64,000 nucleotides of DNA from positions 1 through 64,000 of the forward strand of contig JAIQFK010000029.1 in the NCBI GenBank assembly GCA_020073305.1. Direction: 5' to 3'. Source of the stretch: Terriglobia bacterium (GTDB taxonomy: Bacteria; Acidobacteriota; Terriglobia; Bryobacterales; Bryobacteraceae). The notes under the pieces were generated by a model. The model was not told the origin of the DNA. It saw only the letters and a list, made by a program, of their open reading frames with translations, and ran no database searches. Of the stretch, positions 15,714 through 18,987 are shown one piece after another. The position numbers and the translations under genes are program-made. Position 1 is the first letter of the stretch. Each line of letters opens with the position of its first letter.

Positions 15714-15807
15714 GGGGACAGGCAGCGCTGTCCACGCGCCGTGGAACGGTGTCACATTGGTTGACCGTTGGTGCGGCTTGGGACAGCGAAGCCAGTCCCC
15801 TTTTTTT
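15714..15807. repeat. Imperfect inverted repeat, REP-like, ending in a T-run
   Basis: GGGGACAGGCAGCGCTGTCC (15714-15733) and GGGACAGCGAAGCCAGTCCC (15780-15799) are reverse complements with three mismatches over about 20 bases, 46 bases apart. The right arm runs directly into seven T (15801-15807) that overlap the stop codon of the C45 gene on the other strand. It could act as a bidirectional terminator between the two convergent genes and as an extragenic palindromic element. Confidence 0.6.
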
Positions 15808-17227
15808 ACATGCCGGCGGTGAAGGTTTCCCAAGGATAGGAGTTCATGTCCTTGAGGGATTCCTTCTGCCAGGCGAATTCGGAATGCTTGCGCAAGTGCT
15901 CGGCGGCTTTGAAGTGAAGGCCGCAGGCGTGGCCGGCTGAGGCGGCGAGCGACAGCTTCTCTGCCATGGCGGAGTCGGTCACTTTGTTCTGGGCCGCGCC
16001 GGCGATGCCGTAAGGCTCCTGCCAGGGAAGCATGCCGCGAGCGGACAAATCGACGTGGCCGCACAGCGTCCGCTCGTCCGGTTCGATTTTTTTGTCGTAC
16101 GTATCATAGTGATCGGCGAGGAAACGCTCGGCCGCGGCGACGTCGATCCTGCCTTTATTCTCCGCCATCAACTGTTCCCAGCGTACGCGGCGCGCATTGG
16201 CGCTTTTCGAAGGGTCGCTCAAATTGAAATCGGTTTCTTCGCGCGCCATTTTCCCGCTGACCGGGAAATTCGATCCGACGAAGTAGCCGTCTTTGGTGCG
16301 CTGCAGGTTGACGTTCTTGAGGCCGAGCTCGAGATCGGCGATCTCGTTGGTCTTGCGGTCCGCCACCAGCCAGTTGTTGGCGTACCCGCCGTTATTGCCT
16401 TCGCTCATGATGCGGACGAAGTCGTCGATGGAGGCCGAATACTGCATGGCTTTGCGGCCGCGCACGAATTCGGGAACGCCGTTCGGATCCCAGCCGTGGA
16501 ACTGCGTGATGGTGGTTTCGGTGATCATCATACCGGCCGAGTTGACGCCGAAATCATCGCCGCTGTGAATGAATCCCGGGTAGCCGTCCATGATGAAGTG
16601 ATGGCCATGGGCAGGGACGACGTCGAAGATGATGGTCCAGCGCTCGCCGTCCAAGTACTGCGTCCAGGCGTTGTGGCCGATGACGACGCGGCCATCCTTG
16701 GTGTAGCTGCCGGTGGCCACGAAGGCGCTGCAGCGATCGGGCGCGGTGACCGACGGAGGCGACTGGATCTTGTGTTCCCGGTCGTACTCGTGCACATAGT
16801 ATTCCCATTCGAGCGCGGCGTTCAGCGCCACGATGTCCCACAGATCCACTTTCACGCCGTGCGCGTTGACGCCCTCAGTGATGCCTTTCAACTCGTCGCG
16901 ATATTCCTGCTCGATGTGAGGCCAGAGCATTTCCTGCGCGGTATGGCGGAAGAAGCCCCAGCTTTTGTGAATGTCGTGCGTCATCTCGAGCTGGATCACT
17001 TTGAAGCTGTCGCCGATTTCCGGCGCGAGCAGATAGCCGTGCTGGTATCCGATCTCGGCGGGCGTGCCCTCGAGGTGGACATATGTCCAGCCGCTCTTTT
17101 CGGGACGGCGCAACGCATTCTTCAGGCGAGGATCGGCCTGCGGCTCGCGGGAAGCGAGTAAGACCGCAACGAACAGCAAGGGCGGGGCCACCAGCAGCAG
17201 AGCGGTCTTCGTCGACGCACGGGGCAT
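15806..17227 (-). CDS. Exported C45-like Ntn hydrolase (phospholipase B / acyltransferase-like)
   Basis: A 473-residue protein. The start at 17227 follows GGAGGG 6 bases upstream; longer in-frame codons are spurious. Residues 1-28 (ALLLVAPPLLFVAVLLA) form a signal peptide or anchor. The motif DRCSAFVATGSYTKDGRVV is where C45/phospholipase B-like Ntn hydrolases self-process at a Cys nucleophile, and VVIGHN and GGYANNWLVADRKTNEI are family blocks further on. It is probably a periplasmic amidase or acyltransferase acting on a small amide. It is divergent from selD, with only 36 bases between. Confidence 0.85.
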   Translation of the reverse strand: MPRASTKTALLLVAPPLLFVAVLLASREPQADPRLKNALRRPEKSGWTYVHLEGTPAEIGYQHGYLLAPEIGDSFKVIQLEMTHDIHKSWGFFRHTAQEMLWPHIEQEYRDELKGITEGVNAHGVKVDLWDIVALNAALEWEYYVHEYDREHKIQSPPSVTAPDRCSAFVATGSYTKDGRVVIGHNAWTQYLDGERWTIIFDVVPAHGHHFIMDGYPGFIHSGDDFGVNSAGMMITETTITQFHGWDPNGVPEFVRGRKAMQYSASIDDFVRIMSEGNNGGYANNWLVADRKTNEIADLELGLKNVNLQRTKDGYFVGSNFPVSGKMAREETDFNLSDPSKSANARRVRWEQLMAENKGRIDVAAAERFLADHYDTYDKKIEPDERTLCGHVDLSARGMLPWQEPYGIAGAAQNKVTDSAMAEKLSLAASAGHACGLHFKAAEHLRKHSEFAWQKESLKDMNSYPWETFTAGM

Positions 17228-17263
17228 GAATTCCCTCCAGTGCCCTATTATAGTGGGGACAGT

Positions 17264-18286
17264 ATGGTCGCGCATAAGCTGACGGCGCACGTGAAAGCGG
17301 CGGGTTGAGCGTCCAAGCTGAGTCCAACGGTGTTGGACAAGGTACTGGCGGCGATTCCGCGCGTCACGAATGAAAACGTGCTGGTAGGGTTTGATACCGC
17401 CGACGATGCCGGTGTGTACAAGCTGACGGCGGAGCTTGCCCTGGTGCAGACGGTTGATTTCTTCACGCCGATTGTCGACGATCCTTACACCTTCGGCGCC
17501 ATCGCCGCGGCCAATGCACTGAGCGACGTGTATGCCATGGGCGGCAAACCGCTCTCCGCTCTTTCCATCCTGGCGTATCCGGCGAAGGGCGATCTGGACG
17601 ATCTCGGACAGATTTTGAAAGGCGGCGCAGACAAAATTCACGAATCGGGCTGCGTGATTCTGGGTGGACATAGCATCGCCGATGAGGAAGTGAAGTTCGG
17701 CTATGCCGTCACGGGGGCGGTGCACCCGGAGCGCTTCAAGGCGAACTCGGGGGCGAGGGTTGGAGACGCGCTGGTGTTTACGAAACGGCTGGGCACGGGA
17801 GTGATCACGACCGCGCTCAAACGCGAAATCGCGAGCGATGCACATGTGCAAGCGGCGATCGAATCCATGCTGATGCTGAACCGGGGCGCGTGCGAGGCGA
17901 TGCTCGAGTTCGAAGTTCATGGCTGCACCGATGTGACCGGCTTCGGATTGATCGGGCATGCGCGGGAGATGGCGATTGCGAGCGGCGTGACGGTTGAAAT
18001 CGACACGGCCGCGGTGCAGTTCCTGCCGGGAGCTGTCGATTACGCGCGCCAGGGCGCGTTGCCCGGCGGGTTGAAGAACAATCGCGAATTTGCCTCCTGC
18101 GTGGTGGAGATGGCGCGGAAGATTCCGGCTGAAATCGAGAGCCTGCTTTATGATCCGCAGACCTCGGGCGGATTGCTGATATCGATGACGGAAAAAGATG
18201 CAGGGCCGTTGGAGAAAAGGTTGCCGGGTGCGTACCGGATCGGGCGGGTGTTGGTGAAAGGTGCGAAGGCGATTCGATTAATTTGA
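17264..18286 (+). CDS. selD: Selenide, water dikinase, predicted selenocysteine-containing
   Basis: This enzyme makes selenophosphate from selenide and ATP for Sec-tRNA or selenouridine. The uninterrupted frame begins only at GTG 17330, but reading from ATG 17264 gives MVAHKLTAHVKAAG, a TGA at 17306-17308, then ASKLSP and on into LDKVLAAIPRVTNENVLVGF. In SelD this position is the catalytic Cys or Sec, three residues before the catalytic Lys; here the spacing is Sec15-x-x-K18. A perfect stem-loop follows the TGA at bacterial SECIS distance. The rest (DTADDAGVYKL, TVDFFTPIVDDP, the C-terminal DPQTSGGLL) is a complete SelD, 340 residues. It overlaps pyrF by one base. A true nonsense mutation is the alternative. 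Confidence 0.88.
17322..17338 (+). promoter_or_regulatory. Candidate bacterial SECIS stem-loop in selD
   Basis: GTCCAAC-GGT-GTTGGAC is a perfect 7-bp stem with a GGT loop. The loop G lies 21-22 bases after the TGA, inside the window known for bacterial SECIS elements, and a G/U loop agrees with SelB recognition. It overlaps codons 20-25, so it also encodes SPTVLD. Confidence 0.75.
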
Positions 18287-18987
18287 TGGCGGAACGGATG
18301 AATCCCATCATTGTGGCGCTGGACGTGGAGTCGGCGGAAGATGCGCGGGGGCTGGTGGCGCGGATCGGCTCCGAGGTGAACTTCTACAAAGTGGGCATGG
18401 AACTTTATGCGGCCGCGGGAATGGATTTCGTGCACGAACTGATAGACGGCGGCCGGGATGTCTTCCTCGATCTGAAGTTTTACGACATCGGCGAGACCGT
18501 GAAGCGGGCTGTCCGCCAAGTGGCGCGCACGGGCGTTCGCTTTCTCACGGTGCACGGCTCGAGCGCCGTGATGCGCGCGGCGGTGGAGGGGCGCGGTAAG
18601 TCGCCGCTCAAACTGCTTGCGGTCACGGTGCTGACCAGCTTCGATGAGCAGGACCTGGCCGATCTCGGCTATCGGTGCGCGCCGGCAGAACTGGTGGAAC
18701 TGCGCGTGCGGAAGGCGATGGAGGCGGGCATGGACGGCATTGTGGCGTCGCCCGTGGAAGCGCGTGCCATCCGCGCGCTCACGGGGACGCGGGCGATCCT
18801 GGTAACGCCGGGTGTGCGGTCGGCGGGAGCGGGCAAGGGCGATCAAAAGCGCGTGGCCACGCCCGCGGAAGCCATTCGAGACGGCGCCGATTATCTGGTC
18901 ATCGGCCGGCAGATTACCCGCGCGGCCGACCCTGCCGCCGCAGCTCGCGAAGTGCTGGATGAAATCCACGCAGTGACCCGCGCGTAG
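18286..18987 (+). CDS. pyrF: Orotidine 5'-phosphate decarboxylase
   Basis: This enzyme catalyses the last step of UMP synthesis, decarboxylating OMP. It is 233 residues, with the catalytic block DLKFYDIGETV (D-x-K-x-x-D type) at about 60-70, the substrate Lys near FYKVGMELY and the phosphate-binding end TPGVR...VIGRQITRA. The ATG at 18286 shares its A with the TGA of selD, so translation is coupled; ATG 18298 (MNPII) is an alternative that matches the usual family start. The association with selD looks like simple operon packing. Confidence 0.95.
   Translation: MAERMNPIIVALDVESAEDARGLVARIGSEVNFYKVGMELYAAAGMDFVHELIDGGRDVFLDLKFYDIGETVKRAVRQVARTGVRFLTVHGSSAVMRAAVEGRGKSPLKLLAVTVLTSFDEQDLADLGYRCAPAELVELRVRKAMEAGMDGIVASPVEARAIRALTGTRAILVTPGVRSAGAGKGDQKRVATPAEAIRDGADYLVIGRQITRAADPAAAAREVLDEIHAVTRA

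Follow-up and report, generated by a model that had tools for sequence, protein, structure and literature searches.

The window (the whole 64,000-nt stretch of contig JAIQFK010000029.1 that was analyzed) includes a gene for selenophosphate synthetase, selD, with a TGA in frame at codon 15 (Table 1). Its product matches TIGR00476 over profile positions 1 to 310 of 311, with a score exceeding the curated cut-off of 125 bits, and contains both AIRS and AIRS_C domains; the best solved relative is 3u0o (246 bits over residues 5–309, by phmmer), which we take to be the SelD of E. coli. Apart from the TGA at codon 15 the frame is intact, and a second TGA terminates it. The ATG of the next gene, which resembles pyrF, overlaps this terminal codon by one base (TGATG, 18284–18288), and of the 73 acidobacterial loci that extend 900 bases or more past selD, 33 have a relative of the pyrF-like gene after it. 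On the other side, at about 15806–17228 on the minus strand, selD is adjoined by a divergent gene that by eye encodes a secreted hydrolase-like protein.

Table 1. Features of the selD locus and predicted selenoproteins elsewhere in the same genome.
Feature	Position	Strand	Remarks
selD, selenophosphate synthetase (selenide, water dikinase)	17264..18286	+	340 aa including Sec15; TIGR00476, 374.1 bits
selD N-terminal part missed by ordinary ORF calling	17264..17329	+	listed ORF opens at GTG 17330
In-frame TGA, predicted Sec15	17306..17308	+	aligned to the Cys of GAGCGCK in 3u0o (phmmer)
Predicted bSECIS stem-loop	17322..17338	+	7-bp stem, GGT loop, 20 nt past TGA
selD terminal stop TGA	18284-18286	+	
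pyrF-like gene (named by eye)	18286..18987	+	3' of selD
L174, L175, predicted selenoproteins	contigs C1 and C4		motif FGSYTUPPF, in-frame TGA
L165, L166, L168, L173, L169-L172, predicted selenoproteins			eight genes; four peroxiredoxin/TlpA-like, four CxxU AhpD-like
L170 (one of the preceding eight)	C36:134696-134944		on the contig of the window, outside the window

As the preliminary description had pointed out, a mechanical ORF list shows this gene as open only from GTG 17330, which is 22 codons late and leaves out the catalytic residue. Read from ATG 17264, as was there proposed, the translation is MVAHKLTAHVKAAG-U-ASKLSPTVLDK, the profile match is full-length, with position 1 of TIGR00476 aligned at residue 5, and the TGA falls opposite a catalytic-site Cys. 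This ATG agrees with the start region of selD relatives; farther 5' in the same frame are an alternative start at GTG 17240 and the first stop, TAA 17159. The segment U-A-S-K is aligned to C-G-C-K of 3u0o, in which Cys replaces Sec, and the Lys expected three residues after the TGA is there. Sec15 is also aligned to the Cys of SSGCAAK in the solved chain 2yye (2yye/2zod, 209 bits over residues 8–312, by phmmer), SSG-C-AAK in that protein corresponding to AAG-U-ASK here. We take 2yye/2zod to be the SelD of Aquifex aeolicus, the natural form of which presumably has Sec where the solved chain has Cys.

The TGA is widely shared. Two collections together gave 110 selD loci, with duplicates counted; 95 have Sec at this site, 13 have Cys, and two were unread. 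In a tree of 114 unique selD genes from several phyla, 90 have TGA at the same codon and 24 have Cys, a ratio that leans toward Cys because Cys genes were added by choice (of 15 stretches added to the set, 14 came from genomes in which no TGA lies within the selD match). The relatives collected were the best 80 of 582. Six duplicate pairs between the collections were merged for the tree, one Sec-type locus (L119), misread as Cys by one reading pattern, was left out of it and of all later counts, and the catalytic site was unread in four of 125 selD loci (L098, L136, L158, and L159). All of these readings were made with patterns that demand Lys at +3, one of which also demands U or C at the site itself, so that other residues cannot show there. 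A sample of 121 genomes from the family includes 102 with selD. The match contains a single TGA in 83 of them and no TGA in the other 19 (two of these 19 matches begin past the site); both same-genus relatives carry the TGA. It had been suggested beforehand that close relatives with a Cys codon and no TGA would point to a nonsense mutation. A Cys type does exist in the family, yet the 83 genomes with TGA are the great majority, and the full hairpin described below is missing from 21 of 22 Cys genes. According to PMC4561486, 19% of the SelD genes in a reference set of prokaryotes have Sec, the position of which never varies; by that comparison, the family studied here is rich in Sec-SelD.

Two side observations concern other SelD sequences. 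One gene from a record titled Alphaproteobacteria (L076, SCTB01000118.1) falls within the acidobacterial clade of the tree, perhaps as a mislabelled bin or a transfer. A search of the phylum also returned TGA-less SelD-like matches in open frames of some 750 to 1150 codons (for example in G237, G209, and G228), which are perhaps oxidoreductase-SelD fusions as in TIGR04369.

Downstream of the TGA, the preliminary description had reported a 7-bp stem with a GGT loop, and this is indeed present: arms GTCCAAC (17322–17328) and GTTGGAC (17332–17338) enclose GGT (17329–17331), with 20 bases between TGA and loop. These values lie within the bSECIS model as given in PMC13188914, which calls for an apical loop of 3–9 nt whose first two positions include G, 16–37 nt after the UGA. 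Taken by itself the hairpin is weak evidence, since an equal or better bSECIS-like hairpin lies behind 45 of the 1725 TGA triplets on the two strands of the window, and since single-sequence folding is unremarkable (z from −0.9 to −1.8). A search of Rfam gave no match at 17200–17450 with E up to 10. Synonymous recoding of the same peptide, on the other hand, never reached the hairpin, either in 300 trials with the gene's own codon usage or in 1000 trials that followed the usage in five of the window's genes.

Comparison among genes separates the two types of selD. Of 68 acidobacterial Sec-type genes, 65 have all six tested bases paired (mean 5.85, null 3.01), vs. one of 22 Cys-type genes (mean 3.09, null 2.73); in the three Sec-type exceptions (L110, L116, and L120) the best hairpin is 33 nt away. 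With these three left out, the Sec-type genes gave an alignment of 59 distinct rows (A1), in every one of which the six tested pairs are formed, the seventh, loop-adjacent pair being open in 17. In this alignment 95.9% of cells are paired, a value not reached in any of 500 shuffles, and pairing falls to 18–58% when the partner is slid. Two-sided changes occur at four of the seven pairs, two of these in one row only, and account for 36 cells, vs. 10.9 in shuffles. It is this comparison, and not the single hairpin, that decides the matter, indicating that the selD hairpin is under selection. One Cys-type gene (L033, from genome G064) has kept a SECIS-like hairpin of 6 bp where the Sec genes have theirs, apparently a remnant of a change from Sec to Cys such as PMC1794560 describes; its host genome has a formate dehydrogenase with a TGA.

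The genome itself (6.98 Mb in 51 contigs, 99.89% complete, 4.96% contamination) contains selA (508 bits; 508.6 on the protein), selB (359 bits), and selC, the gene for tRNA-Sec (76.5 bits vs. a gathering score of 47, with anticodon TCA according to ARAGORN). The preliminary description had held that all three must be present if UGA is read as Sec, and that a lack of selB and selC would speak against such a reading. Another locus matching the tRNA-Sec model (L017, 48.0 bits) was set aside, being a tRNA-Ser by ARAGORN. There is one selD over the cut-off, the other four matches scoring at most 62 bits. Across the family sample of 121 genomes selB is found in 95 of the 102 with selD and in eight of the 19 without (Fisher p = 1e-6; counts compiled by hand from the two search tables), so that selB and selD are lost together. 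Six of the 83 TGA-type genomes have no selB match at E 1e-60, and three of these six are less than 90% complete.

Two other users of selenium were looked for. The selenouridine synthase ybbB/selU (TIGR03167) had no match in the genome at E 0.001; among 14 control genomes, the same search gave matches in seven, and in one of these a match exceeded the cut-off. Formate dehydrogenase, put forward earlier as a possible further UGA-containing selenoprotein, did not bear out that suggestion: no alpha subunit over the family cut-off was found in the genome, the best of seven matches having 61.5 bits vs. 814.2.

The gene, the TGA at its catalytic site, the covarying hairpin, and the presence of selA, selB, and selC thus agree with the original proposal that this TGA is a selenocysteine codon. 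On the strength of these comparisons we consider it nearly certain that this is a working selD with UGA15 decoded as selenocysteine, most likely through the ordinary SelB mechanism. A rival reading is that a selD of Cys type acquired a nonsense mutation and is now dead or shortened at its N-terminus. Cys-type SelD does exist in the family, but the occurrence of TGA at this codon in 90 of 114 unique genes from several phyla, the intact remainder of the frame, a hairpin under selection, and a genome equipped with selA, selB, and tRNA-Sec make this explanation extremely improbable. Much the same low probability attaches to a true start at GTG 17330, with the TGA in a leader and a clipped SelD as product. 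This start is what an ORF finder lists, but the clipped form would be without catalytic residue and Lys, the TIGR00476 match begins at residue 5, two solved SelD chains align 5' of the TGA, and upstream residues such as KLTAHVKAAG are found again in relatives. The count of residues at the site in relatives is no independent test of this start, because the pattern demanded Lys.

Reading of the UGA as some other amino acid, by a near-cognate tRNA or by reassignment, is compatible with the DNA taken alone. It becomes very hard to credit in an organism with a tRNA-Sec(UCA), selA, and selB, and in a gene family in which the full hairpin accompanies the TGA type and is nearly always missing from the Cys type; in addition, selD's own terminal codon is TGA.

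If UGA15 is decoded as selenocysteine, the established bacterial pathway suggests how. SelB-GTP carrying Sec-tRNA-Sec would bind the hairpin and deliver Sec at UGA15, where delivery would compete with release factor 2, and the terminal UGA would end translation; a single gene would thus contain two UGA codons with different fates, the first recoded and the last a stop. SelD would convert selenide and ATP to selenophosphate, from which SelA would make Sec-tRNA-Sec. Since SelA needs the selenophosphate made by SelD, SelD would be required for its own full-length synthesis, in a positive loop. The selenophosphate would serve to supply Sec for SelD and for at least 10 predicted thioredoxin-fold and AhpD-like selenoproteins, and would not be used for tRNA selenouridine or, apparently, for formate dehydrogenase. 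Compared with the known Sec-SelD proteins (TIGR00476, UxxK), the gene is alike in family, in having Sec three residues before Lys and a bSECIS downstream, and in the accompanying selA, selB, and selC; there is no difference in kind, the genome here being without a selenouridine synthase or an FdhA over the cut-off. The gene is an ordinary, well-supported member of this large known selenoprotein family.

The preliminary description had also called for a search for other UGA-containing genes, and ten were found, of thioredoxin-fold and AhpD-like types. Two families were searched, so the number is a lower bound: an in-frame TGA is present in four of 11 CMD matches and six of 29 AhpC/TSA matches in the genome. 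By motif, the ten candidates are peroxiredoxins with TPGUT and TGGUT, oxidoreductases with WUPFC and WUSFC, two proteins with GSYTUPPF, and four AhpD-like proteins with CxxU. The GSYTUPPF pair (L174 and L175) match the Pfam family T4_deiodinase (iodothyronine deiodinase) with 117 and 89 bits, over its cut-off of 27, and the NCBIfam deiodinase family with 190 and 188 bits, below its cut-off of 250. Deiodinase-like, peroxiredoxin-like, and CMD-like selenoproteins are all listed families in Table 1 of PMC13188914. Hairpins as good as those of three candidates (L165, L173, and L169) were reached by at most 5% of 1000 synonymous recodings, and those of the other seven by 13–89%, which suggests that the SECIS elements of these seven are weak or of another shape. 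Since none of these hairpins makes as good a case as the one in selD, the prediction of all ten depends chiefly on where the TGA lies, at redox positions. These ten genes argue against the idea that SelD might be the sole selenoprotein of the genome.

Exchange between Sec and Cys appears to have been frequent in this lineage. The selD tree requires 12 Sec/Cys changes, at least seven of them on well-supported branches (the bootstrap is not fully settled). Among its 90 acidobacterial genes, the residue at −2 (codon 17300–17302) is Gly in 21 of 22 Cys-type and none of 68 Sec-type genes, 67 of the latter having Ala; the next-best column differs by only 0.57 between Sec and Cys genes, and some selection enters into the result, since −2 was the best of all columns scanned. 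The supported branches provide six independent Sec/Cys pairs, which on average agree in direction in 5.9 of six (sign test, median p 0.03, near the limit for six pairs). A phylum-wide Ala/Gly coupling had been expected. In the other families of the phylum that were read, the coupling fails, with Gly at −2 in six of 34 Sec genes vs. four of 14 Cys genes; these come from 60 hand-picked SelD stretches, 20 without and 40 with TGA, of which 48 could be read and 12 fell outside the pattern.

That the active site of SelD has switched between Sec and Cys several times around this lineage, and that these replacements are tied to Ala or Gly at −2, is a proposition to which we would give about an even chance. 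Gly may be explained by a loop that needs more freedom with a weaker thiolate nucleophile, and Ala at −2 may favor UGA decoding. The titles and abstract openings returned by a literature search contain no earlier mention of an Ala/Gly coupling; priority is not claimed.

Of 17 Cys-type genomes in the family, 16 have kept selB. FdhA is over the cut-off in eight of the 16, each with one TGA, and present as a fragment in one; in the remaining seven, a search for formate dehydrogenase at E 1e-40 gave no match. Five of these (G065, G020, G002, G097, and G068) are at least 91% complete, and two (G084 and G087) are less complete. According to PMC1794560 (2006), Sec-decoding organisms without FdhA have Sec-SelD. 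The seven genomes look like exceptions to that rule as it is stated there, with the reservation that draft assemblies may miss genes.

With the start of selD corrected, the organism can be counted among Sec users, with 11 or more predicted selenoproteins, selD and ten others, and without an FdhA over the cut-off or a selenouridine synthase. If the coupling at −2 is causal, a change from Sec to Cys would be a two-residue switch, and the lineage would provide a natural experiment on the reasons for retaining Sec. A family in which Sec and Cys forms of SelD exist side by side, with selB kept, is suited to tests of Sec retention at SelD.
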